In this document: piece after piece, positions 1 to 27,101 of the stretch
Layout of the letters: each line of letters opens with the position of its first letter
How positions within the stretch are numbered: the first letter of the stretch is position 1
Assembly: GCF_016629565.1 (NCBI RefSeq)
Contig: NZ_AP023057.1
Span: 1,054,001-1,118,000 of the forward strand
DNA: 64,000 nt
Direction: 5' to 3'
DNA from: Nitratiruptor sp. YY08-10
GTDB lineage: Bacteria; Campylobacterota; Campylobacteria; Campylobacterales; Nitratiruptoraceae
Made by a program: the position numbers and the translations under genes
Notes under the pieces: model-generated
Databases searched by the model: none
The model's input: the letters and a program-made list of their open reading frames with translations, nothing else
What the model was told of the DNA's origin: nothing

Positions 1-122
1 AAGAAAAAAGTATTGAGTCTAATCTTGTCGATGTTTTAATCTATAGATTAAGAAAAAAACTTGGGAAAAAAGATTTTATTCAAAATGTTAAAAGAGTCGG
101 ATATGTTATCAATGATATATGA
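1..122 (+). CDS. OmpR-family response regulator, C-terminal fragment (cut by window edge)
   Basis: Reading from base 3, the frame stays open to a TGA at 120-122 and encodes the end of a winged-helix DNA-binding domain. It shows the typical recognition-helix pattern (V-D-V-L-I-Y-R-L-R-K-K-L) followed by the wing (V-K-R-V-G-Y-V-I). The receiver domain lies outside the window. It overlaps the start of the histidine kinase that follows, so the two form a standard two-component pair. The assignment rests on about 38 residues, but the motif is very characteristic of the family. Confidence 0.75.
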   Translation, partial: EKSIESNLVDVLIYRLRKKLGKKDFIQNVKRVGYVINDI

Positions 123-927
123 AACTACTATAACTTTCATAATAGCAATATTTTTTTTTATTTTAGTTGGAATCACAATAAGATATTTCATTGTATTAAG
201 AGCACTAAATAGATATAAATATGCTATTGAAAATAGAAACTATTTATCTTATCAAAGCTTTCCAAGTGAATTAAAAACCCTAATATTTATGTGCAATAAA
301 AAGTTATTTGATTTGCAACTCCAAAATGATATATTAAAACAGTTTAATCTCTATTTGGCTCATGAAATAAAAAGACCATTAACTCGTATAGTAATGAGCA
401 TAGAACATATAAGCAATCTTGAATTAGACCATTTACATAATGATTTGCTTCAAACTATTAAAATCATTGATAGACTCCTTTATCTTTCAAATAGCTATAA
501 TTTAAATACAATAAATCGTATTTGTATTAATGAAGTTATTCAAGATATTATCCACTCTTTACAATCAGATATTGAAATTACATTTTTGCAAAATGGCTTG
601 ATACATATTCATGGAGATAAAGATTTGATAAAAATAGCACTTCAAAATATGATAGAAAATGCCATAAAATATTCAACAAAGAAAAATAAGATCTTAATTG
701 TTTTACATTCAAATAAAAAAAACTTCTTAATAATTAGAGATTGGGGAGTTGGAATTCAAAAATCTAATTGCAAAAAAATATTTCATTTTTCTTATCAAGA
801 GAGTAGTTTCAACCAAGGATATGGTATAGGATTAGCCCTCGCAAAATGGATATTTGATTATCATGGCTTGGCTATAAAAATTTATAGCAAAAAAGGTTAT
901 GGGACAAGAGTTAAGATCATATTTTAA
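103..927 (+). CDS. Sensor histidine kinase
   Basis: Membrane sensor kinase paired with the response regulator whose tail precedes it. One strong hydrophobic segment lies close to the N-terminus. The H-box reads LAHEIKRPLTR (phospho-acceptor His), the N-box ALQNMIENAIKYS, and the G-boxes include RDWGVGI and GYGIGLALAKW, so the DHp and HATPase_c domains are complete. There is almost no periplasmic sensing domain: only one transmembrane stretch is evident before the cytoplasmic part. ATG 103 is preferred because it overlaps the regulator stop and has an AAAAGAG stretch upstream; a TTG at 61 and ATGs at 85 and 112 are alternatives. The signal is unknown. The proximity to metal-efflux genes is suggestive only, since the next gene is convergent. 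The gene is visibly AT-richer than its neighbours. Confidence 0.85.
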   Translation: MLSMIYETTITFIIAIFFFILVGITIRYFIVLRALNRYKYAIENRNYLSYQSFPSELKTLIFMCNKKLFDLQLQNDILKQFNLYLAHEIKRPLTRIVMSIEHISNLELDHLHNDLLQTIKIIDRLLYLSNSYNLNTINRICINEVIQDIIHSLQSDIEITFLQNGLIHIHGDKDLIKIALQNMIENAIKYSTKKNKILIVLHSNKKNFLIIRDWGVGIQKSNCKKIFHFSYQESSFNQGYGIGLALAKWIFDYHGLAIKIYSKKGYGTRVKIIF

Positions 928-952: not shown

Positions 953-3900
953 TTGTACAAAAGATAGTATAAACTTGGTAAAATTAGAAGTGTTACAAGG
1001 GTTGAAGTAACAATACCACCTACAACAACCACAGCGAGCGGATACTCGATCTCACTTCCAACACCCGTTGCATACAGAAGAGGTAAAATACCAAAAAGCG
1101 TTGTCATTGCCGTCATTAGTACTGGTCTGAGTCTAAGAAGCGTTGCATCTTTAACTAAAGTTTGCATCTTCACATCAGGAAAACGTTTTTGTAGCTCTTC
1201 TATGAAACTCACAAGCACGATACCATTGAGTACCGCAATTGCGATGATGACGATAAAGCCGATAATTGCAGCAATGGAGAGGTAGATATCGGCAATTAAT
1301 ACCGCAACGATGGAGCCAATAATACCAAGAGGAACGCCAAGCAAGATGATCGTCGCTTTCTTGAAGCTGTTGAAAGCTGTGTAGAGTAAAAGGAGTATCA
1401 ACAGCAGTACTGCAGGAATGATAACAGCTAGTTTTTTTGTTGCCTCTTGCATGTTTTTAAAATCACCTGCCCACTGAATATAGTATCCTGCCGGAAAATG
1501 CAGGTTTTTATGAATCTTTTCATTGGCCTCTTTCACAAAAGAGGCGATATCGCGCCCTTCCACATCAAAGGATATGAGCATATAGCGAGAAAGATTTTCT
1601 CGTTTTATAAAGGATGGTCCTTGAATAATCTGGATATCTGCTACTTCTTTGAGACGAGCCACTTTGCCGTCTGGGGCTCTAAGCAAAATATTTTGTAAAC
1701 TTTCAATATCACGCTCCCCTTTTGGCTTGATAATGATAGGGAACCTCTTAATCCCTTCAAATTTATCGGTTATCGCATCTTCACCCAGCAAATAGCGCAC
1801 CACATCCATAATATCTTCAGCAGTCAATGAGTATCTGGCCATCGCTAAGTAGTTTGGTTTGATCACGATTTGAGCTTGTCCAAGCTGTGATTCAATCTCA
1901 ATAGATCTAAGTCCATCGATATGCGAAAGAATATCTTTGATTTTTGATGCAAGATATGCAAGAATTTTTTGATCTTCTCCAAAGATTTTTACCGCAAGTT
2001 CTGCTTTGACCCCCTCTAGCAGCTCTTCTATACGCATAGCAATAGGTTGAGTTGGAACAAATTGTACAAAATCGTACCGTTTTTCAAGCTCTTCGCTCAT
2101 TTTTGCCTCTAACGCTTTGATATCAAACTCTTTTTTCTTAAGTCCTACCAAAATTTCCATATAATTTGGACCGGCAGTTTCGCCTTTTTCGCTTCTACCT
2201 ATCATTGCCAAAACAAAATCCACATACTCAGGATACTCTTTTTTTATGAAGTTTTCTATATCTTTACTAAGACTCACCGTTTGAGACAGAGCCGTCCCGG
2301 GGATGGCGATGACACGATACATGATAGACTCTTCATTGAGTTTTGGCATAAATTCGCGCCCTTGTTGCGTAAGTAGATATGCCAATACCGCAAAGAGTAT
2401 GAATGCAACTGCCACGACACTCTTTGAATATTTCAAAGCACCTACAAGCAGTGGCGTATAAAGCTTTTTGATCCAAACCACAAGTGGCGATTCGCTAAAC
2501 TTTACCGGTTTTAAAAGATAGTAGTTCAAAACGGGAACTAACACAAGAGCTACAACAATGGAAGCAAGCATCACAAATACGATATTAATAGCCATAGGTG
2601 CATAGAGCTTTCCTGTAAGCCCTCCAAGACTCAAAAGCGGAATAAAGGTTGCAGCTATGATGAAAATGGCAAAAATAACAGGTTTTGTCACCTGCGCTGC
2701 AGCCTCTGCTATGAGCTTCAGTTTGGATTCATTTGGATGCTCTTGAATAAGTCTAAAAGAGTTTTCTACGACAACTATCGTTCCATCGACAATCATACCG
2801 ATTGCAATGGCAAGTCCACTAAGACTCATAAGATTTGCGCTCATACCAAAATAGTCCATCATCAAAAAAGCGATAAGCAAGGAGATAGGAAGCGATAATA
2901 CAACAATAAAAGCGCTTCTGACTTCAAACAAGAACAAAAACAAAATAACACTCACAAGTACCGCACCCATAATTAAAGAAGAGGTCATTGTGTGGACTGC
3001 TTTTTTGGTAATTTCACTTCTATCATAAATTGTCTGGACTCTTACATTTTTGGGAAGTGCGGCGTTGATCTCTTTGACTTTCTCTTTGAGTCTGTCCACT
3101 ACTTTGGCTGCATTAGTACCGGTTCTTTGCAGTACCATTCCAAACATCGTCTCTTTTCCATTGAGAGTCACCGCACCAAAACGCATTCTTTTGCCCTCTT
3201 TGACAACTGCCACATTTTCAATTTTGATAGCCTTGATACCCGAAGATTTGATGACACTCTTGCGTATTTGATCAAGATTTTCATAAAAGCCGCTACCTCG
3301 AATGATATACTGCTCTTTGTTGAATTCTAAATATTGTCCCCCTGCACTTTTGTTTGTTCTTTGCAGTGCATCAATCACATCTTCATATGTCACTTTCAAA
3401 GCTTGCAGTTTTTTAGGATCAATCACAACTTCAATCTGCTTTTCAAATCCGCCCCAACCGATAACCTCTTCTACTCCATCAACTGTTTTGAACATTGGAC
3501 GTACCAAAAAGTCTTGCAACTCTCTAAGCTTCGTTAATGAAACACCATCGCCTTTTAGCTGGTACCAAAACACCTGGCCCAGTCCAGTGGTGTTTGGTCC
3601 CATAACAGGCTTTCCAAACCCTTTTGGTATATCGACGGTTGCCAGTCTTTCGCTCACAAGCTGACGTAAAAAGTAGATATCGTATTTGTCTTCAAAAAAG
3701 ATGCTTACGTAACTGAGACCAAAAATGGAATTGGACATAATAAGTTTTACTCCGGGAAGTCCAGCCATAGCCGATTCGATAGGATAGGTGATGAGTCTTT
3801 CGATGATTTCTGGGCTGTTGCCCGGGCTTTCAGTATAGATAATCACCTGTTTGGGGGTAATATCAGGAAATGCATCTACCGGAATTTCTTTGTACGCCCT

Positions 3901-3978
3901 ATATCCCAATACCCCTACAAGGATAAAAAGAGCCAATACTAAAAAGCGATATTTGATAAAGGTTTCAAAAAATTTCAT
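946..3978 (-). CDS. Heavy-metal efflux RND transporter, CzcA/CusA family
   Basis: Inner-membrane proton-driven pump subunit of a tripartite metal exporter, 1010 residues, the usual HME-RND size. The N-terminus (first TM, then PVDAFPDITPKQV) is typical of the family. Twelve transmembrane segments in two sets flank two large periplasmic loops. The TM4 signature reads AIGMIVDGTIVVVEN, with the proton-relay Asp and Glu in place. It differs from the AIGAMVDAxIVMIEN form seen in CusA-type Cu/Ag pumps and in the second pump at 11249, so the substrate may be another ion (Zn, Co, Cd, Ni). It is the last gene of a leftward run with the adaptor and TolC genes upstream, separated from the adaptor by 9 bases. 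The start is preceded by a good AAGGAGAG ribosome site. The substrate is not provable from sequence. Confidence 0.92.
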   Translation of the reverse strand: MKFFETFIKYRFLVLALFILVGVLGYRAYKEIPVDAFPDITPKQVIIYTESPGNSPEIIERLITYPIESAMAGLPGVKLIMSNSIFGLSYVSIFFEDKYDIYFLRQLVSERLATVDIPKGFGKPVMGPNTTGLGQVFWYQLKGDGVSLTKLRELQDFLVRPMFKTVDGVEEVIGWGGFEKQIEVVIDPKKLQALKVTYEDVIDALQRTNKSAGGQYLEFNKEQYIIRGSGFYENLDQIRKSVIKSSGIKAIKIENVAVVKEGKRMRFGAVTLNGKETMFGMVLQRTGTNAAKVVDRLKEKVKEINAALPKNVRVQTIYDRSEITKKAVHTMTSSLIMGAVLVSVILFLFLFEVRSAFIVVLSLPISLLIAFLMMDYFGMSANLMSLSGLAIAIGMIVDGTIVVVENSFRLIQEHPNESKLKLIAEAAAQVTKPVIFAIFIIAATFIPLLSLGGLTGKLYAPMAINIVFVMLASIVVALVLVPVLNYYLLKPVKFSESPLVVWIKKLYTPLLVGALKYSKSVVAVAFILFAVLAYLLTQQGREFMPKLNEESIMYRVIAIPGTALSQTVSLSKDIENFIKKEYPEYVDFVLAMIGRSEKGETAGPNYMEILVGLKKKEFDIKALEAKMSEELEKRYDFVQFVPTQPIAMRIEELLEGVKAELAVKIFGEDQKILAYLASKIKDILSHIDGLRSIEIESQLGQAQIVIKPNYLAMARYSLTAEDIMDVVRYLLGEDAITDKFEGIKRFPIIIKPKGERDIESLQNILLRAPDGKVARLKEVADIQIIQGPSFIKRENLSRYMLISFDVEGRDIASFVKEANEKIHKNLHFPAGYYIQWAGDFKNMQEATKKLAVIIPAVLLLILLLLYTAFNSFKKATIILLGVPLGIIGSIVAVLIADIYLSIAAIIGFIVIIAIAVLNGIVLVSFIEELQKRFPDVKMQTLVKDATLLRLRPVLMTAMTTLFGILPLLYATGVGSEIEYPLAVVVVGGIVTSTLVTLLILPSLYYLLYKK

Positions 3979-3987
3979 ACTCTCTCC

Positions 3988-4998
3988 TTAATCCTCATCG
4001 CCGATGCTTTCTTTCAAAAGCCGTGATTTGTAAAGATAAATATCTTTATCGATATACTCTTGATTTGGCTTTAATCCCTCAATTACTGCATACTCCCCTA
4101 CAAAATCGATAAGTTTCACAACATGTGGCTCAGGCTCTTTGGATGGAAGAAATACAACCCACTCGCCATTTAACATTGTAAGCGCACTCTTTTTAACTGC
4201 AAGCACTTTTTTATATGGAGCTGACTCTATCTGAATATCGCCAAATGCTCCGATGAGAAGCTCTTTATTGGTTTGTGGAAGTTCAAACAGAAGTTTTGCT
4301 TGTGCCGTCTCTTCATCCACTCTTGGTAATATTTTTATAAAACTCGCTTTGAAACTGTAGGGTCCGAGATGAAAAATCGCCCTAACGTCTTTTAGACGCA
4401 GTGCATCCTCAACGCTTAAGAATGCTACAAGATAGTAGCGGGATTGACTCAAAATCTCTACCAATGGAGTAGTGCTTTTGACATTGGTATGCACCGGAAC
4501 CAAAATCTTTTGCACTGTTCCATCGGCATGAGAAGTAATCGTATAGTACTCCACCGGTTTTGTAACCTTTGTGATACCAAGAATTTTGAGTTGAAGCCCC
4601 AGTGAAGTAAGATCATTTTCTTTATCTTTGAGAGTAGTTTTGAGTTTCGCTAGATCGTTATAGCTCATGATCCCTTTTTGATACAGAGCCTTTGCATTCT
4701 CGTATCGTTTTTTCAAAACTGCTACTTCATTTTGAAGAGTCAAATAGCGTGATGTCATTTCGCTCAAGATGAAAGACTTTATACGTGCTATTTTTTGCCC
4801 TTTTTTGACACTGTCGCCCTCTTTGACAAAATATTCTTCGATATGCCCAGGAATTTGGGTGACGATATTTTGTGTAAGATTTTTAAGCGTCACAACCTGG
4901 GCACTAGTGTTATAGAGTTTGCCAAGATTGATATACTGCACTTTTGCATTGGCAAAGAGTGAGACTGCTGTAATGAGAAATAGTATAAGTCTAGCCAT
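3988..4998 (-). CDS. RND efflux periplasmic adaptor (HlyD/CusB-like)
   Basis: Membrane-fusion subunit bridging the RND pump and the TolC-like channel. A signal peptide (MARLILFLITAVSLFANA) is followed by a lipoyl-like half (G-H-I-E-E-Y-F-V-K-E-G-D-S-V-K-K-G-Q), a predicted alpha-helical hairpin around residues 75-130, the second lipoyl half, a beta-barrel region and a C-terminal membrane-proximal domain. At 336 residues it is a little shorter than E. coli CusB and lacks an obvious Met-rich metal-binding N-terminal extension. It overlaps the end of the upstream TolC-family gene by 8 bases, so the two are translationally coupled. Confidence 0.88.
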   Translation of the reverse strand: MARLILFLITAVSLFANAKVQYINLGKLYNTSAQVVTLKNLTQNIVTQIPGHIEEYFVKEGDSVKKGQKIARIKSFILSEMTSRYLTLQNEVAVLKKRYENAKALYQKGIMSYNDLAKLKTTLKDKENDLTSLGLQLKILGITKVTKPVEYYTITSHADGTVQKILVPVHTNVKSTTPLVEILSQSRYYLVAFLSVEDALRLKDVRAIFHLGPYSFKASFIKILPRVDEETAQAKLLFELPQTNKELLIGAFGDIQIESAPYKKVLAVKKSALTMLNGEWVVFLPSKEPEPHVVKLIDFVGEYAVIEGLKPNQEYIDKDIYLYKSRLLKESIGDED

Positions 4999-6139
4999 TG
5001 TATCGTCCTTTTATGTAATTTATCTGGATTTGATTGATATTGAGCATGAAGAGTTTTTTCACGATCTCTTTTTCGATAGAAATATACGCTTTTTGAGCAT
5101 CCAAAATATCAAGGAGTGTACTTTGATCAATTTTGTAACTTTCAATATAAAGATCTAAAAGCTCTTTTTGCTTCTTTTTTGTTTTTTGAAGCAAATCCAA
5201 ACTCTTTTGAATCATTCGGGCCTGCTTTTGAAGCCCCTGCAACTCGACTTCAAAGCGTTTTTTTAGAAGCTCTAAATCTAAAGCAGCATTGTTTGCTTTC
5301 ATTTTTGCGATTACAACCTCTTGTTTGGGTTTATTGATTGGAAGAGGAATGGATATGCCAGCGCGAAGGATCCCGGAGTTCGGTTCTTTTTCATAATTGA
5401 CCGTGAAATTTATTTTTTTTATGGAATGACTCTGCTCTTTTGCTAAATATAAAAAGCGCTTCTTATTTTTTTCATACCATGCAAATTCTGCTGGATTGAT
5501 CTGACCTGAAAAATCGAAACGCTCATACAAAAACCAATTTGGCTCAATATTGCCAGAAAATCCGGCATACCTTTGTAATTGCATTTTAGCTTTGACTACA
5601 TTGTTTTGTGTATCAATAAGTTTTTTTTGGAGTGTCAACAATTTTGTTTGAAGTTTGAGCACATCTATTTTTTTGCCATATCCTTTGGCATATTTCTCTT
5701 CTGCTATAGAAAGTAGTCGTTTATAGATAGCTATCTGAGAATGAATAGGCTTAAGTAATTTGTTTTGATATACATAGCTCGTATAGAGAAGCTCCAAATT
5801 TTTTATAAATCTTGCTTTTAAAACCGCTTCATACGCTTTTTGCACTTCTACTTCACTCACTGCTCTTTTTTTAAGATCTCTCAGATAGTCTGGCAGCCTG
5901 TAGGGTATCTGCAATGTTGTCTCAAATCCACTACCATCTTCATACCTGCTTCCTAAAAGTTCCAATTGTGGGTTGAGGGAACGCAAAAGTCTTACTTGGT
6001 TCTCTCTTGCAATCGCAATTTTTCCTTTTTGTTGTAGAAGCTTTGGAAAATGTTCCAAAGCTTCTTGTTTGAAAGCCTGAAAATCGGCTCCAAAAACAAA
6101 GCAGACAGCAACACTTGTGAGCAAAAACGCTCGTTTCAT
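4991..6139 (-). CDS. TolC-family outer-membrane efflux channel
   Basis: Outer-membrane factor of the leftward tripartite pump, 382 residues. A signal peptide (MKRAFLLTSVAVCFVFGA) is followed by long amphipathic helices rich in K, Q, L and E with the internal duplication typical of OEP/TolC proteins. A motif GxGxxIDVLKLQTKLLTLQ in the first helical hairpin and the matching YKIDQSTLLDILDAQ in the second are characteristic of the family. It starts four bases inside the upstream small gene (ATGA-type overlap) and overlaps the adaptor gene downstream. Confidence 0.88.
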   Translation of the reverse strand: MKRAFLLTSVAVCFVFGADFQAFKQEALEHFPKLLQQKGKIAIARENQVRLLRSLNPQLELLGSRYEDGSGFETTLQIPYRLPDYLRDLKKRAVSEVEVQKAYEAVLKARFIKNLELLYTSYVYQNKLLKPIHSQIAIYKRLLSIAEEKYAKGYGKKIDVLKLQTKLLTLQKKLIDTQNNVVKAKMQLQRYAGFSGNIEPNWFLYERFDFSGQINPAEFAWYEKNKKRFLYLAKEQSHSIKKINFTVNYEKEPNSGILRAGISIPLPINKPKQEVVIAKMKANNAALDLELLKKRFEVELQGLQKQARMIQKSLDLLQKTKKKQKELLDLYIESYKIDQSTLLDILDAQKAYISIEKEIVKKLFMLNINQIQINYIKGRYNG

Positions 6140-10291: not shown

Positions 10292-11256
10292 GACTATTAC
10301 TTATGTTTCTTGTGCCTTTTTTGTTGTGTGCAGAAAGGCTGAGCATAGAGCAGCTTTTCAATGTTAAAACGACAACAGTTGAAAAAAAAGATCTTTTTGT
10401 GCAAAAAACCTATCCTGCCATAGTGAAACTCGATGAGAGCAAAATCGTCGATATCGCTCCACGATTTTCTGGATATATAGAAAAGCTGTATGCAAAAGAA
10501 CCATTGCAACATATCAAAAGAGGCGATATTTTAGCACTTGTCTATAGCCCTGAAGTCTATAACGCAAAAGAGGAGTACAAAAACTCTTTGAAATTTGGTC
10601 TTGACAAGAGAATGACAACAGCTTCTTATCTAAAACTAAAACTTCTAAATATTCCAAAAGATGAACTCAAAAATCCTACAAAAACTTTAACTATTACAAA
10701 AATATTAGCGCCTATTGATGGATTTTTGCTCAAAAAAGATGTTTACCTGGGAAGTTTCTTTCAAAAAGGAAAAACAATTTTTCGTCTCGCATCAAATACT
10801 TATTATTGGATAGAGGCTCAAATTCCAAATAAAGATATCAATTTTTATAAACAATCTGACTCGATAATTGCCCAAATACGAAATGAAAAGTTACAAGTAA
10901 AAAAACATAAACTACTTCCTCTCATAAATTCAAACAGTGCTCTTGCAATAGTGCGTCTTTTTGTTGAGGCAAAAGGTATTCTTGCAGGAGAATATGCCAA
11001 AGTTACCATAAGAGAGCATAAAAAATCGATTCTCGTTATACCAAAAACGGCCGTTATTCGCAAAAATGGCAAATGGTACGCCTTTAGAGTTGGCGAATAT
11101 GAAGGGGAATATGAACCGGTTGTCGTTCAAATAAAGCCACTTGATAACAGATACTATCAACTTATCTCTGGGCTTAAAGAAGGTGAGACGATTGCCGATA
11201 GCGCAATGTTCTTGCTTGATAGCGATGCCCAGATAAATGGACTCTACAATGATTGA
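10288..11256 (+). CDS. RND periplasmic adaptor, CusB-like
   Basis: 322 residues: signal peptide (MRLLLMFLVPFLLCA), then a CusB-type domain beginning V-D-I-A-P-R-F-S-G-Y-I-E-K-L-Y. The helical hairpin is very short, reduced to about 50 residues around Y-S-P-E-V-Y-N-A-K-E-E-Y, as in CusB proteins where Y-S-P-E-L is a hallmark. The second lipoyl half and the beta-barrel follow. It has no Met-rich N-terminal metal-capture extension. It overlaps both neighbours, so the three pump genes are coupled. Confidence 0.87.
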   Translation: MRLLLMFLVPFLLCAERLSIEQLFNVKTTTVEKKDLFVQKTYPAIVKLDESKIVDIAPRFSGYIEKLYAKEPLQHIKRGDILALVYSPEVYNAKEEYKNSLKFGLDKRMTTASYLKLKLLNIPKDELKNPTKTLTITKILAPIDGFLLKKDVYLGSFFQKGKTIFRLASNTYYWIEAQIPNKDINFYKQSDSIIAQIRNEKLQVKKHKLLPLINSNSALAIVRLFVEAKGILAGEYAKVTIREHKKSILVIPKTAVIRKNGKWYAFRVGEYEGEYEPVVVQIKPLDNRYYQLISGLKEGETIADSAMFLLDSDAQINGLYND

Positions 11257-14200
11257 AAAAATTATAGAATTGAGCGCAAAAAATAGATTCTTGATTCTTT
11301 TATTTGCCCTCATTTTTGCAGGAGCATCCTATTGGGCCATAAAGAAAACACCTCTTGATGCTATACCTGATCTAACCCCACCTCAAGTCATCATACAGGT
11401 CAAATTTCCTGGACAAAGCCCAAAAATCATAGAAGATCAAGTTACCTATCCCCTTACAAGCTCTTTTTTGGCAATATCTGATATCGATACGGTTCGAGGC
11501 TTCTCAACTTACGAAAATGCGCTGATTTACATCATCTTTAAAGATGGAACCAATCTTTATGATGCAAGAACGAGAGTGTTAGAGGAACTGAGCAAAGTTG
11601 CACCTACCCTTCCCAAAAATGCAGAGGTAAGCCTTGGGCCAGATGCAAGTGGTGTTGGATGGGTGTATGAGTATGCACTGGTTAGCAATACAAAAGATTT
11701 GGCCCAGCTTCGCACATACCAAGATTATACTCTCAAATATGCACTCTTAGGTATTGATGGTGTAAGTGAAGTTGCCGGCGTTGGCGGATTTATTCCAAAT
11801 TATCAAGTGACAATCGATAATCACAAACTCATAGAATATGGAATTTCAGTCAAAGATATAGTTAAAACGCTAGAACTTAACAACAACGATGTTGGCGGCG
11901 GTATAACGATACAAAACGGGTATGAATGGATGATTCAAGCACGTGGCTACATCAAATCCTTGCAAGAAATTGAAGAGCTATCCATTAAAACGAAACGAAA
12001 GATTCCACTGAAAATCAAAGATATAGCAAGAGTCGAATGGACTGCCATGCCAAGACGAGGTCTAGCAGATCTGAACGGTCAAGGAGAAGTGGTTGGAGGA
12101 ATCGTTATTGCAAAATATGGTGCAAATGTCTATGCAACCATCAAAAAAGTAAAAGAAAAACTTTCACAACTCCAAACCAAAGATATCAAAATTATCCCTA
12201 CATACGATCGAAGCAAACTCATAGAAGATGCTGTAAGCACACTTAAAGATACACTCATTGAAGAGAGTATCATCGTTCTTGTCGTAATCGGTTTTTTTCT
12301 TTTTCATTTTAGAAGCACATTGATCGTATTGATCGTTTTGCCATTGACTATCGGTCTAACGTTTTTGCTTATGAAAATTTTTGGCATTGGCTCCAATATC
12401 ATGAGCCTTGGGGGTATCGCTATCGCTATTGGGGCTATGGTGGATGCGAGTATTGTCATGATAGAGAATGCCCACAAAAAACTGGATAGCATTAAAGATA
12501 AAAACTCCTTGACGCCAAGCAAGAGAGTTTCGCTCATCATTGAATCGTGTCAACAAGTCGGTCGTCCAATCTTTTTCGCCTTAGCCCTTGTCGTCGTTTC
12601 CTTTCTACCGATTTTTGCTATGCAAGGACAAGAGGGAAAGCTTTTTACGCCACTTGCCTTTACAAAAACCTTTGCTATGAGTGTAGGAGCAATCTTGGCT
12701 ATTACGATAGTGCCGGCTCTTATGATCTGGTTTATTAAAGATGTCCCAGATGAAAAGAGAAATCCAATCAATAGATTTTTTATCTGGCTCTATCATCCAT
12801 TTATCGTTATTGGATTGAAACTTCGCTACATTCTTATCCCCCTTTCAGTAGCTTTGCTTCTTTTTTCCTATCCGCTTTACAAAAAGCTCAAATGGGAGTT
12901 TATGCCACCACTCAATGAGGGCGTTTTGATGTATATGCCGGTTACTCCCTATGGCATTAGCATCGATCAAGCAAAGATGCTTACACAAATGACAGACAAA
13001 GTGATAGCCAGTTTTGATGAAGTAGAGACTGTCTTTGGAAAAGCGGGACGTGCCGATACTGCAACCGATCCGGCTCCAATTTCCATGATAGAGACAATCA
13101 TAACGCTAAAGAATGAAAAAATTGATATGAAAAAGCTGTTGCAAGAACTCGATGAGGCAGTGCAAGTTCCGGGACTAGTCAACTCTTGGACATACCCTAT
13201 TCGGGGCCGCATCGACATGCTTTTAAGTGGTATCAGAACACCCCTTGGCATCAAACTCTATGGAGATGATATAAAAAAGCTGCAAATATTAGCCAAAAAA
13301 ATTGAAACGAAACTTGCCGCTTTAGAACAAACAGAGTCTGTTTTTGCCGATAGAAGCGATACGGGATACTACATCGATATCGATACAGATCCCAAAAAAC
13401 TTGCTTTATACGGATTAAAACGATCGGATGTATTGGATTTTGTAAGCTTCGCAATAGGTGGAAAAAAAATTACAACAAAACTAAAAAACATTGAACGATA
13501 CCCTATTTCGATCCAGCTTGAAGAGGAGCAAAGAAACAGTCTTGAATCGATCAAAGAGCTTCGTATTAAAACAAAATATGGCTATATTCCTCTAAAAGAG
13601 ATAGCCAATGTCCATTATGAACAAAGTGCTTCTGTACTTAAAAGTGAAAAAGCAAAACCGGTCACCTACATCTATATCACTCCAATGCAAGGAGTGAGTG
13701 CATCAGAGTATAAAAAAGTTGCACAAAACGCCTTGCAAAGTTTGACTCTTCCAAAAGGATACTTCTATGAGTGGGCCGGTAGCAGTGAATATCTACAAAG
13801 TGCCATGAATACGTTCAAATGGATCGTTCCATCGGTGCTTCTCATTATTTTGATACTCATCTATTTTGCTCTTGGTGAAATTGTACCAACGCTATTTGTC
13901 TTCTTATCTTTACCTTTTGCTTTTTTGGGAGGACTTCTTTATATCGATTACTTGGGTTTTAATATGAGTGTTGCAGTGGTTGTCGGATTTTTGGCACTGC
14001 TTGGAATTGCGGCTGAGACTGCGATCGTTATGATCATCTATCTCAAAGAGAGCGTGGAAAAATATGAGAAACTGGATAAAAAACTACTCGTTGAAGCGAT
14101 ATATGAAGGCGCTGTTCAAAGAGTTCGTCCTAAACTGATGACCGTTTTTGCAATTTTAGCTGGTCTGCTTCCCATTATGTACACAAACAAAACAGGCAGT

Positions 14201-19264: not shown

Positions 19265-21082
19265 ATGCATTACTATTTATTGTACGACAAAAACATTGAA
19301 CCTCAAATTATAAAGCAGTATTCACTTCTTATATATAAACATTTTCATACGCATCCGATAAAAAAAGAATTTTATGAAAGAATAGTGGATTTTCCTCCAT
19401 CATCAACTATTTTTTTGCTTACTGGAGATAAAGAGCTCAAATCCTGGCTCCATTTTGCAAAAGCAAAAGATTTCACTATCTATATTATTCCAAACCCTTC
19501 CAATCCCTTAGCACAGAAATGTTTCCATCTTCCTTCATCTTTTGATGAACTTTTATCCATGCAAACTATGACTTTTCATCATTTAACCTATTGCAATCAA
19601 GAGATTCTTTTCACTTCTGCGATCATTGGGGATAAACGTTGGATTACCAATCAAAGTCTTTTTCTCTCACTTATCAAAAATTTTTATAATATTCATCTCT
19701 TTAAAACTTTTTTAGAAATTAAAAACCAAAAAATTCTCACCGCATCGTTATTGATAGAAGCCGGGAATGAAATCTACATTAAAGAAAAACGACAAACATT
19801 TTTTTCAGATATTCCGCCGGGATGTTTCAAAATAGCTGCACTTATTTTTGCGCCAATAAGCATAATTGAAGCTCTCAAATTACGTTATTTTCTCTTTAAA
19901 AGAGATAAAAGATTTTTACCAAACGGCATCGGAATACTAAAATCAGATAACTTTACTATATCCACGGACCAAGAGCTTACTCTTATTCGTGACAACACAT
20001 CACCTGTAATATCCAAAAAAATAACAATAAAGAGTATTCCTGTCAATCTTACAATTATTACCGGATATCCATCCTGCCCAAAAGATGAAAGCGACAATAT
20101 TCGAATCGACCGTCTTCCCAAAGATGAAGAACTTATTACTTTGTATACCAAAAGAACTTTGCCATTTTTACCCATAGCTCCAGAAGAGGCCTTTGCAGAT
20201 CTTTTTAAAAAAATCAAAGATAATGCCAAAATAAGCATAGAATATACAGTTTTACTTCTTATTAGTGTTTTGATGGCAACTTTCGGTCTTTTTCAAAACT
20301 CATCTCCTACAATTATCGGTGCGATGATTTTAGCTCCTCTTATGGCTCCTGTCATATCTCTTGCTATGGGGATCATCCGTTTTGAAGAGAATCTTGTAAA
20401 AAATAGTATGAAAACTATACTTATTTCTACATTTCTCGCCCTTTTGCTAGCTCTCGGATTTACCAATCTATTCCCGATAGAGCATATGACACAGCAGATG
20501 TCTATTCGAACAAACCCTACTCTTCTTGATCTTGGCGTAGCAATCCTTGCAGGTCTTGCAGCCGCTTATGGGTATGCAAATTCTAAAGTTGGAGAGAGTT
20601 TGGCTGGTGTGGCTATTGCGGTGGCACTTGTACCGCCTCTTTGTGTTGCAGGCATTGGTCTTGGATGGGAAAATTTGGATATCTTTTACAAAGCATTTTT
20701 GCTTTATCTTGCAAATATCATAGGAATTGTCTTTGCAGCAGGGATAATGTTTTATCTTCTTGGCTATGCATCCAAAAGATACGCCTCTGCTGCACTTATT
20801 ATTAAATTATTACTCCTTGCATCAATCTTTTTCCCTCTCTATGTTGCCACACAGACAGTCCTTAAAGAAGAGCAAATTTATGAGCAGATCAAATACTTAC
20901 AATTTAAAAATGTAACACTGCAACTTGATACCATTCAATATCATAAAAAGGGAGCAACACTCTTTATATCGGTTCTAAGCAAGAAAGAATTAAATGCAAA
21001 AGAAAAAGAAGAGATAATGCAACAAATCAAGAAAAGGTTTGGAGAAGAAATACTCATAATATCATTTAAACAAATATTATAA
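19265..21082 (+). CDS. DUF389 (TIGR00341-like) membrane protein with long N-terminal domain
   Basis: 605 residues. The C-terminal half holds the DUF389 core: several membrane helices with I-G-A-M-I-L-A-P-L-M-A-P-V, G-L-A-A-A-Y-G-Y-A and G-V-A-I-A-V-A-L-V-P-P-L, all family hallmarks. The N-terminal roughly 320 residues are soluble. They include T-I-Y-I-I-P-N-P-S-N-P and later N-F-T-I-S-T-D-Q-E-L with P-V-N-L-T-I-I-T-G, a pattern that recalls a degenerate diacylglycerol-kinase-like fold without its G-G-D-G-T loop. The function is unknown. The start ATG follows a weak ribosome site. The gene is not obviously in an operon. Confidence 0.8.
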   Translation: MHYYLLYDKNIEPQIIKQYSLLIYKHFHTHPIKKEFYERIVDFPPSSTIFLLTGDKELKSWLHFAKAKDFTIYIIPNPSNPLAQKCFHLPSSFDELLSMQTMTFHHLTYCNQEILFTSAIIGDKRWITNQSLFLSLIKNFYNIHLFKTFLEIKNQKILTASLLIEAGNEIYIKEKRQTFFSDIPPGCFKIAALIFAPISIIEALKLRYFLFKRDKRFLPNGIGILKSDNFTISTDQELTLIRDNTSPVISKKITIKSIPVNLTIITGYPSCPKDESDNIRIDRLPKDEELITLYTKRTLPFLPIAPEEAFADLFKKIKDNAKISIEYTVLLLISVLMATFGLFQNSSPTIIGAMILAPLMAPVISLAMGIIRFEENLVKNSMKTILISTFLALLLALGFTNLFPIEHMTQQMSIRTNPTLLDLGVAILAGLAAAYGYANSKVGESLAGVAIAVALVPPLCVAGIGLGWENLDIFYKAFLLYLANIIGIVFAAGIMFYLLGYASKRYASAALIIKLLLLASIFFPLYVATQTVLKEEQIYEQIKYLQFKNVTLQLDTIQYHKKGATLFISVLSKKELNAKEKEEIMQQIKKRFGEEILIISFKQIL

Positions 21083-21159
21083 AATTACAAAGTAAAATAT
21101 TTTCATATGAAATACATGAAATATAAAAAATTATCATAGATTATTTTAAGGAAAGACAC

Positions 21160-22993
21160 TTGGATAAAAATCAACGGGAATCACAAGTTAAATTTTTGGA
21201 TGATATTCCATTTACAAAAGATGAATTAAAACTGCATGAAAATATAGCTAAAACGATAAAGGAAATTTTAAATTTAACTAAAGATAAAAATAAAAAAACT
21301 ATAGGACTTTTTGGGTCATGGGGTTCTGGTAAATCGACAATTATAGAAATTTTAAAAAATGATATTGGAGAAAATAAAGTTTTTATATTTGATTCATGGT
21401 TCCATAAAGGAGATTTCCTAAAAAGAGCTTTTCTATTAGAGTTGGCAAGAAAATTAAAAGTCGAGAAAAAAGAATATAAAGAGAAAAATGAGGATTCTAA
21501 ATTAACTATCTCAAAAGCATTAACAAGAAAGGTTATCGAAAAATTTGTAGAGCCAAAGATAGAAATTGACTTTATCACAAAAACTTTTTCATTAGTAATA
21601 ACTATTATCTATATTATTTTTATCTATTGATAATATTTTAGAATTTCTAATAGACTATGTTCCTCTATCACTAATAAATTTATTAAGTAGTTTTCTTTTA
21701 GAAAATAAGATAATACTGTGGATCTTAGTATTTATAATGTTTGGTTTTTCTTACTATGTTTTAACTCCTTTTATTAATTTTTATTTTTTAAAAAAAGCAG
21801 ATATTACTGAATCCCATACAACAAAAGAAGATTTAGAGTTTACAAATTATGATTATGAAAATTATCTAAAATATATATTGGAAAAAGCACAGATAGAAGA
21901 AAAAAAGCCATTTATTATAGTTTTTGACAATTTAGATAGAGTAGACAATGACACAGTTTTAAATACCTTATCTTTAATTCAATTGACAAATGAAATTTTA
22001 GAAAAAAGCAAGTTCAAAAAAATATATTTTATAATTCCTATTGATATGGAACGACTTGAAAAAACTGTAAAAACTATAATAACTGGTAACAATGATGATG
22101 AAGAAAAAAAATTTGCAAAAGATTTCTTAGTGAAAATTTTCCCTTATAAAGTAAATGTTCCAGATATTAAGCATTCAAATTGGAGAAAATTCTTTGTTAA
22201 TAAGATTAAAGAAGCTTTTGGCTCTATTATAAAAGAAGAAGATGTATTCTTTATAAGAAGAGTTTTTGAAAAAAGTATAAGTAAATCTCAAGAAAAAAAT
22301 TTAACACCAAGAGAAATAAAAAACTTTATAAACAGCTTAGTTGAGAACTATTTATATTGGGAAAACTCTTAAAATCAGCCAGATATAAAACTTCAAGCAC
22401 TTTATGTATCTTTGAATAATTATTTTGATGATTTCAAAGATTGGGTTGAATGTATAGAAAACGGAAATAAAAATACTTGTAGTAAATCAAACAAAATTTA
22501 CCAAATAATTGATATTGCAAAAGAAGAATTTGCTGAAAATGAAATTAAAGAAGCTCTTTTAAAGCAGTGTTATAAAGTAGAAGAAATTTATCTTTTGTTC
22601 GTTGATTCTGTAATTCAGGCTATAGAGAATGAAGAAATAGAAAAATTAAAAGGTATAGTTGGTTTGTTTGACGATAAAAACAAAGTTGACCAATTGTTAG
22701 ACGAAATATGGGAGCAAAAAGATAGATTCCAGAAAGATATAAATAGGTTAATAAAGTTTTATAAGGCATTAAAAGAAATTAATAAATATAATCTATTTAG
22801 ACAAAAAATTATAAGCAGTTTAAGAAAAAATATAGAAGATATAGAATCTCTTTCTAAATTAGAAGTATACAATATAAAAGATTCAATAGAGATTTTAGAT
22901 AGCAGTAATGAACTTAAAAATCTATTTATTGAAAAATCTGCAGAGATAATAACAACTATTCCAGAGGATGAAAATAATGAAGAACAGAGATAA
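21160..22993 (+). pseudogene. KAP-family P-loop NTPase, interrupted by a frame shift and an in-frame stop
   Basis: TTG start 21160 has an AAGGA site. The first frame carries Walker A G-S-W-G-S-G-K-S-T (residues 52-60), then F-D-S-W-F-H-K-G, and stops at 21628-21630. The +2 frame is open from 21602 and continues through two hydrophobic membrane segments into Walker B (F-I-I-V-F-D-N-L-D-R-V-D, about 21908-21943) and the rest of the KAP domain. Membrane helices inserted inside the P-loop domain are the defining feature of the family. An in-frame TAA at 22370-22372 breaks the same frame again, and coding then resumes to 22993. One extra base around the T5 run near 21616-21620 plus one nonsense change would explain both, so the intact protein would be about 610 residues. 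KAP proteins include the F-plasmid phage-exclusion protein PifA. The gene could be decayed, phase-variable or mis-sequenced. Confidence 0.75.
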
Positions 22994-24647
22994 AATCAAT
23001 TTTCTAAAAAGTTTATCTTCTGTACTCTTAAAAAGAGCAGATATAAAAAAAGAAGTCTTAGATAAAGTAAATGAAAAATTACAAGATAAAAATATAGAAG
23101 AAATTGAAAAGATTGTTTTTGATTTATTTGAAGGTTTGGAAAGTAATGAGAATCTTTTAAAAGAAGTAATCAATTTAGAAAACATAAAAATAAATGATAT
23201 TGTAAAAAAATTTAATGAAAAATTACCTCAAAACCCATCTGCAAATCTAAATATAACTGATGATATAAACCAAAAACACTACAATTTAATTAAATTTTTA
23301 GCAAAGGAAGGAATTTTAGATAAGGAAGTCTCAGAGACTTATATTGATAAAATGTTAAATACAGTTGTAAATTTTCAAAATGACAGTAATTTTTGGAACT
23401 ATTATAACAATCCGGGAAATCAAAAATATCAATATCGTCTTTACAATGCTTTCTTTACTGAAGATAATTTAGTTAGTTTATTTTTTATACATTTTTTAAA
23501 TTTATATGAAAATCAAGAAGAACGCTATATAAATCAAATTCAAAATAGTCTTAAAATTTCTATAGCTCTTTATATTTCAATTTCACAAAGAGTTTCTCAA
23601 GTAAAGAAACTTTTAATTCCTTTTTCTATAATTTCTATATTTGCTGATCTATATAATCAAAGTATACAAATTAATAGAATTGGACGAATCAATATTGTTC
23701 AGATGTTTCAAATAATATTTCAAAATGAAAGCCTAAATATATATATAATAGAAAATCTAAAAGAATTAAAGGAACTAAATCTTATTTATGATCTTTTAAT
23801 AGACTTAGAAGAAAAGCAAGTAGATAAGAGTTTTACAATTAAGATATTAAAAAACATTATAGAACAAAGCTTATATGATAATAAATTATTAATAAATTTT
23901 AATACTTTATTTTCAAATAATGTTAAAGAAGATTATGAAGAAGTAATAAATAAAAAACTCGAGGAAAACAAACATTGGTATAAAGAACTTATATTAAATA
24001 ACATTTTAAGCGATAACGAAATTTTACATAATAAAGCTATTGAATTCCTCTTATTTGTAAATAATTGGTATGAAGACAAAGAGCTAAGAGAAATCTTAAA
24101 AGGATTTTTAAAAAAGAATATAGATAAAATTTTTAATAGTGATGAAGTTTATAATTTATTAAAAATATTTGTGGAAAAAGGTGAAGAACTTAAGATTAAC
24201 TATACAATTTTAGGAAGAGTTTTAATTGATAAGTTTATAAACTTAGAAAACGAAGATGAAAAAATTGATTATATTTTCAAAAATATAGAAAGAATATACA
24301 AAGAAAAAGATTTGAAAGATTATTTTATACCTAATTTGCTTGATAAAACCATCTTAAATTTAAGAAATATAAGTGAAAGTCAAATAAATATATTAAACAA
24401 TAGCAAATTTATATTACAAAATATCGAAGAATCTAAAATCAAAGAACTATTCCGAAAAGTAATTGATGAGCGTACTAATAAAAATGTCTTTTCTCTACTA
24501 AATTTAATCTTGTGCAATAATAAATTAGACAAAGAGATCAAGAAAGAATTTAAAGAGAAATTAGAAGAAATTAGAGAAAAAATAGAAACAGATGAAATGA
24601 AAAAAATTATAAATGAAATTATAAATAATTGCATTACAAATAATTAA
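22977..24647 (+). CDS. Helical protein of unknown function coupled to the KAP NTPase
   Basis: 556 residues, intact. ATG 22977 lies inside the end of the KAP gene (17-base overlap) with a strong AGAGGA site at 22963-22968, so translation is coupled; an upstream in-frame ATG at 22968 overlaps that site and is less likely. The protein is almost entirely Leu/Ile/Glu/Lys/Asn-rich predicted helix, without signal peptide, cysteine clusters or any nucleotide-binding or nuclease motif I can recognise. The regular spacing of leucines hints at an alpha-solenoid scaffold. The base composition is as AT-rich as the KAP gene and clearly unlike the flanking core genes, so the two were probably acquired together. 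The function is unknown. Confidence 0.75.
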   Translation: MKNRDKINFLKSLSSVLLKRADIKKEVLDKVNEKLQDKNIEEIEKIVFDLFEGLESNENLLKEVINLENIKINDIVKKFNEKLPQNPSANLNITDDINQKHYNLIKFLAKEGILDKEVSETYIDKMLNTVVNFQNDSNFWNYYNNPGNQKYQYRLYNAFFTEDNLVSLFFIHFLNLYENQEERYINQIQNSLKISIALYISISQRVSQVKKLLIPFSIISIFADLYNQSIQINRIGRINIVQMFQIIFQNESLNIYIIENLKELKELNLIYDLLIDLEEKQVDKSFTIKILKNIIEQSLYDNKLLINFNTLFSNNVKEDYEEVINKKLEENKHWYKELILNNILSDNEILHNKAIEFLLFVNNWYEDKELREILKGFLKKNIDKIFNSDEVYNLLKIFVEKGEELKINYTILGRVLIDKFINLENEDEKIDYIFKNIERIYKEKDLKDYFIPNLLDKTILNLRNISESQINILNNSKFILQNIEESKIKELFRKVIDERTNKNVFSLLNLILCNNKLDKEIKKEFKEKLEEIREKIETDEMKKIINEIINNCITNN

Positions 24648-24744
24648 AATTACTTATACACTTTTAACATAAATAATTGCTAGTCGTCTCCAACTTTTTA
24701 AACAAAAATAAATAATTATTACTAATTACGTTTAAAAACTCGTT

Positions 24745-24782
24745 ACTTGGAAGATCGTGTCAAAGGCCAAAATCTTCCAAGT
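24745..24782. repeat. Inverted repeat in the gap after the KAP island
   Basis: An 11-bp perfect inverted repeat (ACTTGGAAGAT / ATCTTCCAAGT) with a 16-base spacer lies in the 246-base non-coding gap between the island and purL. No T-run follows directly, so it is not a textbook terminator. It could be a terminator for either side, a protein site or a remnant of the island end. I see nothing else supported in this gap. Confidence 0.5.
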
Positions 24783-24893
24783 TGTAGTAAATAAATCTTA
24801 TTTAGTGCTCTTAGATTGAAATATCCCGAATAAATTGCAATATCTAGTGCAGATTTCAGTATAGTCACTCATATCTATTTATCTAAAAGATTT

Positions 24894-27101
24894 CTATAGA
24901 TCCCTTTCTATCTCTTTCTTGAAAGTATTAAAATAAATATCCTTAAGTTTCTCCATATCCATATCGATATCACAAAGCTGGAATCTATTGCCACCGATAG
25001 TTCCAAGTGGTATCGCATGGATACCAATCTCATTTGCCAACTCTTCAAGTGCATGCATATTTTTTGGATCAATCTCAACAAGTGCCCTACTAAATGTTTC
25101 ACTGAAAATTTCTCTGCTGTCTTCAAAGCAAAAATTGCCCAAAAATCCTTTGTCTCCAATTGCAGCCATTTTAGCTAATGCTATTGCAATACCCCCTACC
25201 CCTACATCTTTGGCAGCTTTAAGGAGTCCTCGATTATTTGCCTCTATGACAAAATTCCAAAGTTTAAGCTCTTTTTCATAATCGATTTTTGGAAGCTCAC
25301 CTGCAACTTTCCCAAATAGCTCTTTAAGATAGAGACTTCCTCCAAACTCTTTTTCGGTATCTCCTATGATATAGACGATATCATTTTCTGCTTGAAAATA
25401 GGATGGCAAAACCTTGTTTGCATCCTCATTGAGTCCTACCATAGCAATTGTTGGTGTAGGATAGACACTTACACCGTTTGTTTCGTTGTACAATGATACG
25501 TTTCCACTGACAACTGGGGTATTCAGTGCGCGGCATGCCTCTTTGATTCCTTCTGTTCCTTGGGCAAACTGCCACATCACTTCAGGATTTTCTGGATTTC
25601 CGTAGTTGAGGCAGTCCGTAATAGCCAAAGGTCTAGCCCCACTCATCGCCACATTGCGCCCAGCCGCCATCACCGCAGCCGCAGCCCCGCCTTTTGGATC
25701 GATATAGCAGTATCTTGGATTGCATTTGCTGCTCATAGCTATGGCTTTGCCATTCTCTTTGACACGGATCACGCTTGCATCGAGGGTTCCTGGATGCTTT
25801 ACGGTATTGGTCTGAACCATAGAGTCATACTGTTCATACACCCAAGCTTTGTTGACTACTTCAAGGCTTCCCAAAAGCTTTTCAAACGCTTCTTGATCGT
25901 TTACATGCGGTACAGTATCGATACTTGTCTCTTTTATATACTCAAGATATTCTGGCCTTTTTGTAGGACGATCAAGTTCAGGTGCTTCTTCGCTCACAGG
26001 TGCTACCGGCACTTCTGCAACCTTCTCACCGTGCCAATAAAGTTCCATTACTCCGGTATCGGTCACTTCACCGATAATTTCAGCATCAAGATCCCATTTT
26101 CTAAAAATTTCCAGGACTTTCTCTTCTGTACCTTTTTTTGCGCATATCAGCATTCGCTCTTGCGATTCAGAGAGCATCAACTCATATGGTGTCATCCCCT
26201 CTTCTCGCATTGGAACTTTATCAAGATACATCTTCATTCCGCTTCCAGCACGACCTGCCATCTCAAAGCTACTTGAAGTAAGTCCAGCTGCACCCATATC
26301 CTGGATACCGACAACATAGTCTGTTTTAAAAAGCTCCAAGCAAGCTTCCAAAAGGAGTTTTTCCGTAAACGGGTCACCCACTTGCACAGTAGGTCTTAAC
26401 TTTTTGGTCTCTTCTGTGAAGCTATCACTACTCATTACAGCCCCGCCAAGACCGTCTCGTCCGGTTTTGCTTCCAACATAAATAACCGGATTGCCTACTC
26501 CTTCAGCTCTTCCGTAAAAAATTTCATCTTTTTTACAAATTCCAAGACTAAATGCATTGACTAAAATGTTGCCGTTGTAGCACTCATCAAAACTCACTTC
26601 ACCACCGATTGTCGGAACTCCCACACAATTGCCGTATCCGCCAATTCCGGCAACCACCCCTCGAACCAAATAGCGCTGATGTGCTCCAACTTCATCATCT
26701 CTTTTTACATCCCCAAATCGAAGGGCATTGAGATTTGCTACCGGACGCGCACCCATAGTAAAAACATCTCGTAAAATTCCACCAACTCCTGTTGCTGCTC
26801 CTTGATATGGCTCGATAAAACTTGGATGGTTGTGGCTTTCCATTTTAAAAACGGCTGCCATTCCCTCACCTATATCGATAACACCCGCATTTTCTCCGGG
26901 ACCTTGAATCACCCATGGAGCTTCAGTAGGAAAGCCTTTGAGATATTTTTTAGAGGATTTATATGAACAGTGCTCACTCCACATAGCACTGAAAATTCCA
27001 ATTTCAACTAAATTTGGCTCACGCCCTAAAATTTTTTTTATATGTTCATAGTCCTCTGTGGTCAATTTATGTGCCTTGAGAATCTCCTCAATATTTTCCA
27101 T
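24894..27101 (-). CDS. purL: Phosphoribosylformylglycinamidine synthase subunit PurL
   Basis: ATP-dependent synthetase subunit of purine step 4 (FGAR to FGAM). At 735 residues it is the small PurL type, which needs separate PurQ and PurS; both are encoded at 44012-44925. Motifs: [20 protein letters not shown] and G-V-G-G-I-L-R-D in the first half, and [10 protein letters not shown]. The start has a good AAGGG site upstream. It is the last gene before the AT-rich island. Confidence 0.95.

Follow-up and report, generated by a model that had tools for sequence, protein, structure and literature searches.

KAP systems in phage defence and the Nitratiruptor locus

Membrane KAP NTPases take part in bacterial defence, and many members of the family (PF07693) carry membrane helices inserted between the Walker motifs. 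Two KAP proteins serve as precedents for phage exclusion, namely PifA of plasmid F, which excludes phage T7, and Tmn, which as far as is known acts as a single gene; the mechanisms of both are not settled. Tmn combines the KAP NTPase with two transmembrane domains, and a role of this architecture in defence against phages has been shown for it (PMC11846954).

The locus described here lies in a stretch of 64,000 nucleotides (the window; G000:C1:1054001-1118000) of the 1.82-Mb genome of Nitratiruptor sp. YY08-10, where a KAP gene is directly followed by a gene for a second, helical protein (gene 2). On balance, the two genes are probably what is left, after decay, of a rare two-gene system that moves horizontally and joins a membrane KAP NTPase to a HEAT/ARM-like solenoid partner, of which an unbroken copy is found in another genome, G038. 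Tmn is the nearest known system in architecture, as both types consist of a KAP NTPase with two transmembrane segments, judged here from the hydropathy of the G038 relative and compared at the level of architecture. Unlike Tmn, the window/G038 type has a coupled helical partner that is kept in both genomes, and the window copy is broken. Within PF07693, the type resembles other members in scoring above the curated cut-off and in having helices between the Walker motifs, but it differs from them by TESHTTKEDLEFT, a motif that follows the second membrane segment, by a helical extension of 200 residues and by its occurrence in 2 of ~490 genomes.

The sequence-only reading of this DNA had pointed to PifA, and the link holds as far as the KAP domain, since the proteins have in common Walker A, a Walker B with DxLDR and the TPREI motif. 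It does not hold beyond it: similarity in BLASTP is confined to blocks around Walker A (26% over 85 residues) and Walker B (22% over 150 residues), PifA has no membrane segments that could be found and only 146 residues from Walker A to Walker B against ~223 here, its C-terminus is unrelated, and the protein encoded next to it in the operon, PifC, acts as a repressor. Identity with PifA was thus rejected, the fit being limited to the shared KAP domain and falling short of full-length similarity. QatABCD resembles the pair in that a KAP-type ATPase is followed by a coupled gene. In PADLOC, the G038 KAP protein scores 62 bits to PifA (E 1e-17) and 28.6 bits to QatA, whereas for a genuine QatA from this order the scores are 372 bits to QatA and 79 bits to PifA, so that the 62 bits reflect just the shared domain. 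The NCBIfam score for QatA, obtained on the 156-aa fragment 1 of the window gene only, is 43.6 bits against a cut-off of 600. Gene 2 is not QatB and does not align to QatB-like partners, and QatC and QatD are absent from the insertion and its DUF389/purL flanks; membership in QatABCD was therefore rejected on the score of the KAP protein as well as on its neighbours. Among the order's other KAP genes, those tested for helical partners are of the QatA/QatB or PDC-S49 types or adjoin other genes, such as those for a type III restriction enzyme, for a methyltransferase and for Fic, and none of the tested downstream neighbours aligns to gene 2. That the pair should be a divergent member of a known KAP defence system (PifA, QatABCD, PDC-S20 or PDC-S49) is consequently very improbable, even though the PADLOC scores to PifA and QatA speak for it. 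Elsewhere, G025 (L113, G025:C1:746000-754000; 1353-3794, minus strand) has a 688-aa KAP gene and, 67 nt downstream, an 813-aa protein without a Pfam or PADLOC match.

An insertion with a broken KAP gene

As delimited by composition and by the empty sites of three congeners, the whole insertion covers 21083..24893 (~3.81 kb, 22.2% GC). It is flanked by two convergent genes encoding a DUF389 membrane protein (19265-21082, plus strand) and PurL (purL, 24894-27101, minus strand). Because the gap between DUF389 and purL is just 34-40 bp in congeners G035, G030 and G013, in which the locus comparison found an identical gene order, ~3.8 kb have been inserted in the window genome alone, and the gene pair is absent from every other searched genome of the genus or family. 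The remaining window has 37.7% GC, and window stretches of the same length as the insertion range no lower than 34.5% (mean 37.9%, sd 1.4%). The sequence-only reading had described the pair as more AT-rich than both flanks and as horizontally acquired; the composition agrees with the former, and the empty sites, which show that the pair is not a conserved feature of the purL/DUF389 locus in relatives, agree with the latter, as does a separate insertion in G038. Neither an integrase or transposase nor a duplicated target site turned up, and no known RNA family was found. The 3' non-coding part of the insertion holds an 11-bp inverted repeat (ACTTGGAAGAT...ATCTTCCAAGT, 24745..24782), and convincing copies of this part are absent from the rest of the genus. 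A short GCCGGC hairpin of the congeners, likely a terminator shared by DUF389 and purL, is missing from the window at 21083-21159 and 24648-24893, and the insertion's own inverted repeat differs from it. Two observations concern other genes: a histidine-kinase-like gene at 61-927 (plus strand) of the window, adjoining an RND-type efflux operon, has ~25% GC, far under the window mean, and in congener G035 (L043) two overlapping frames at 10348-10803 and 10800-12305 (minus strand) make up what is one 653-aa frame in G013.

The KAP gene lies on the plus strand, behind a likely ribosome-binding site, AAGGA (21148..21152); in the relative, the TTG start is likewise preceded by an SD-like run. It is present as three pseudogene fragments. 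Fragment 1 (21160..21630) comprises the TTG start, with the TTG-DKNQ beginning kept in the relative, the N-terminus, Walker A (GSWGSGKST, 21313..21339) and the first hydrophobic segment, and reaches a stop after 156 aa. Fragment 2 (21602..22372) carries the second hydrophobic segment, Walker B (FIIVFDNLD, 21911..21937) and the remaining NTPase domain, ending at a premature TAA (22370-22372), and fragment 3 (22373..22993), a helical C-terminal extension, aligns to residues ~425-637 of the relative. The hydrophobic, putatively membrane-spanning segments between Walker A and Walker B (21565..21781, plus strand) were located by hydropathy at residues 136-208 of the window protein and, as two strong segments, at 150-186 and 190-219 of the G038 protein; among the order's examined KAP frames, only these two showed strong hydrophobic segments at this place under a fixed hydropathy threshold. 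PF07693 scores of 40.7 bits for fragment 1, 54 bits for fragment 2 and 75.6 bits for the intact relative, against a curated cut-off of 20 bits, bear out the family assignment that had been made from the Walker motifs and the hydrophobic helices. Matches of the KAP profile to PDB sequences (E 0.006-0.03, TMEM106B) were dismissed as chance.

What the sequence-only reading missed is the break, as it had taken the KAP gene to be one continuous gene. The open frame is in fact interrupted by a +1 frameshift and by an in-frame TAA. The second frame opens after a stop at 21599-21601 and the first runs into a stop at 21628-21630; as the two overlap only in 21602-21627 (plus strand), the shift must be there, within an interval that includes a run of five T (T5) at 21617-21621. 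The TAA belongs to a short stretch that has three additional codons. These breaks are lesions, because one 637-aa frame spans both places in the intact G038 relative. The conservation of residues between the two proteins carries on either side of both. With its KAP gene disrupted, the module, as the sequence-only reading presents it, almost certainly does not work in the window genome.

Gene 2 (22977..24647, plus strand) encodes 556 aa without an internal stop. Its ribosome-binding site, AGAGG (22963..22967, plus strand), lies inside the KAP 3' end, 9 nt upstream of the ATG at 22977, in a layout that is alike in the relative, and gene 2 and the KAP frame overlap by 17 nt in the window and by 11 nt in G038. 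The coupled frame with a ribosome site of its own was thus rightly described from the letters alone. Searches of the protein against Pfam, PADLOC, NCBIfam, PHROGs and PDB sequences gave no match. A single-sequence AlphaFold model is helical throughout with a mean pLDDT of 52.3, which is weak overall, and the last 181 residues modelled alone reach 82.8. As Foldseek matched the model only to alpha-solenoids and helical bundles (HEAT/ARM, MIF4G-like; TM up to ~0.5), a helical-repeat fold of the HEAT/ARM kind is likely but not proven; the confident C-terminal part had no Foldseek match with E below 0.001. BFVD also gave fold matches to viral proteins, which were put down to generic helical repeats and a poor model, and weak hits of the gene 2 profile in three genomes, spanning 50-60 residues at E 0.002-0.005, were regarded as noise. 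Finally, as a sign of continued selection on gene 2, the two lesions in the KAP gene against none in gene 2 do not reach significance, given two frames of comparable length and two sequences.

A complete pair in another family

Relatives were sought in 397 genomes sampled across the phylum and in 399 sampled across the order, two sets that overlap and amount to ~490 distinct genomes. A relative of gene 2 occurs in one of them only, G038, which belongs to another family, and there a KAP gene lies directly upstream. The second component is thus kept beside its KAP gene and is without a family match, in line with the uncharacterised partner that had been proposed; the thought that homologues of gene 2 might mostly lack a KAP neighbour is not borne out by the sole homologue found. 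The G038 pair is complete and unbroken, with a KAP protein of 637 aa that is 49% identical and a gene 2 product that is 33% identical to those of the window. Common to both genomes are the TTG start (TTG-DKNQ), the AGAGG inside the KAP 3' end and a gene 2 ATG that precedes the KAP stop. In G038, the pair lies in an island of ~7 kb with 20.5% GC, between two convergent genes, an ATP-synthase-c-like one and a recN-linked one, and congener G028 has ~370 bp at this position. The two insertions are therefore independent and at different loci, both of them very AT-rich, and no ends common to them were found. Since the G038 pair is a separate AT-rich insertion that has kept the TTG start, the membrane helices and the overlapping junction, both the pairing and its horizontal transfer are supported (n = 2).

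When genome and viral contigs were scanned by pattern for gene 2 or the KAP alignment, no relative could be confirmed, although such scans depend on short peptide patterns and can miss relatives. With tblastn against plasmids and phages, gene 2 had no match and the KAP protein had one weak Walker A match and no close relative. No known defence gene adjoins the pair within the window. Two further genes of G038 may be mentioned for themselves. The island (L005, G038:C1:942000-960000) encodes at 12728-13564 (minus strand) a strongly hydrophobic protein of 278 aa without a Pfam or PADLOC match, which is absent from the window copy, and elsewhere the genome has another KAP gene, distinct from the first, of 635 aa and 18% GC (L085, G038:C1:1109000-1119000, 3380-5287, minus strand).

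Alternative readings and a possible role in defence

The frameshift and the stop could be sequencing or assembly errors, in which case the window would hold an active two-gene system. The frameshift lies near the T5 run, single-base indels in homopolymers being a common error, and the reading frame is otherwise well conserved. We nevertheless consider this quite improbable, given that two separate lesions of different kinds occur within 1.8 kb, that a TAA among three extra codons is unlike a homopolymer error, and that the genes flanking the insertion (~14.6 to 31.4 kb) can be aligned to three congeners in single frames and without a break, so that the lesions are probably real and generally poor sequence is disfavoured. 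The residue-level conservation across both breaks would also suit programmed frameshifting or read-through, by which a full-length or a regulated split KAP protein would be made; yet in the relative the frame is continuous, a run of five T is short for slippage and two different recoding events would be required, which leaves this reading scarcely credible. An unlikely but more serious alternative is that the pair forms a non-defensive selfish or exclusion module, for example an addiction-like one with the KAP protein as effector under the control of the helical protein, kept for its own maintenance. Patchy insertions, overlapping genes and the loss of the NTPase while its partner stays open are what such a module might show, but neither protein matches a toxin or antitoxin family beyond weak P-loop scores, and two hits in one member with the other intact are not significant alone. 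The preferred reading, a decayed copy of a mobile two-gene system, has points against it as well, as close relatives are absent from phage and plasmid records and from viral contigs, known defence genes do not adjoin the pair in the window, the recurrence amounts to two genomes, signs of an insertion mechanism such as an integrase, a transposase or a duplicated target site were not found and the full-length model of gene 2 is poor.

From the precedent of the KAP family and the patchy, inserted distribution, we infer that the role of the decayed system may have been anti-phage; the fit to PifA, confined to the KAP domain, the core genes that flank the pair in the window and a recurrence in two genomes limit how far this goes. 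The intact cassette, as seen in G038, encodes a KAP P-loop NTPase with two putative membrane helices inserted between the Walker motifs and a translationally coupled, probable helical-repeat protein. The NTPase, placed in the inner membrane, might act as a nucleotide-controlled switch, and the HEAT/ARM-like partner might bind the NTPase, an infection signal or both. Upon a trigger, the oligomeric or nucleotide state of the NTPase would change, membrane function would be damaged or growth stopped, and phage production would abort. In this reading, the cassette was inserted between DUF389 and purL and lost its function, afterwards or before, through the +1 frameshift in the membrane segment and the nonsense codon past the NTPase domain, leaving gene 2 alone intact. 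As a tentative proposal, in which our confidence stays short of even, the pair could represent an undescribed two-component anti-phage system, intact in one genome and inactivated in the window, in which a co-translated HEAT/ARM-like partner, the member of a new protein family, licenses a membrane-inserted KAP NTPase or serves as its sensor.

The window copy is probably dead, and the intact pair of the G038 type is the one worth testing. The clean insertion, together with the empty sites in close relatives, provides a simple case of presence and absence. Finally, a version of KAP with a dedicated, faster-diverging helical partner would let sensing be separated from effector action.
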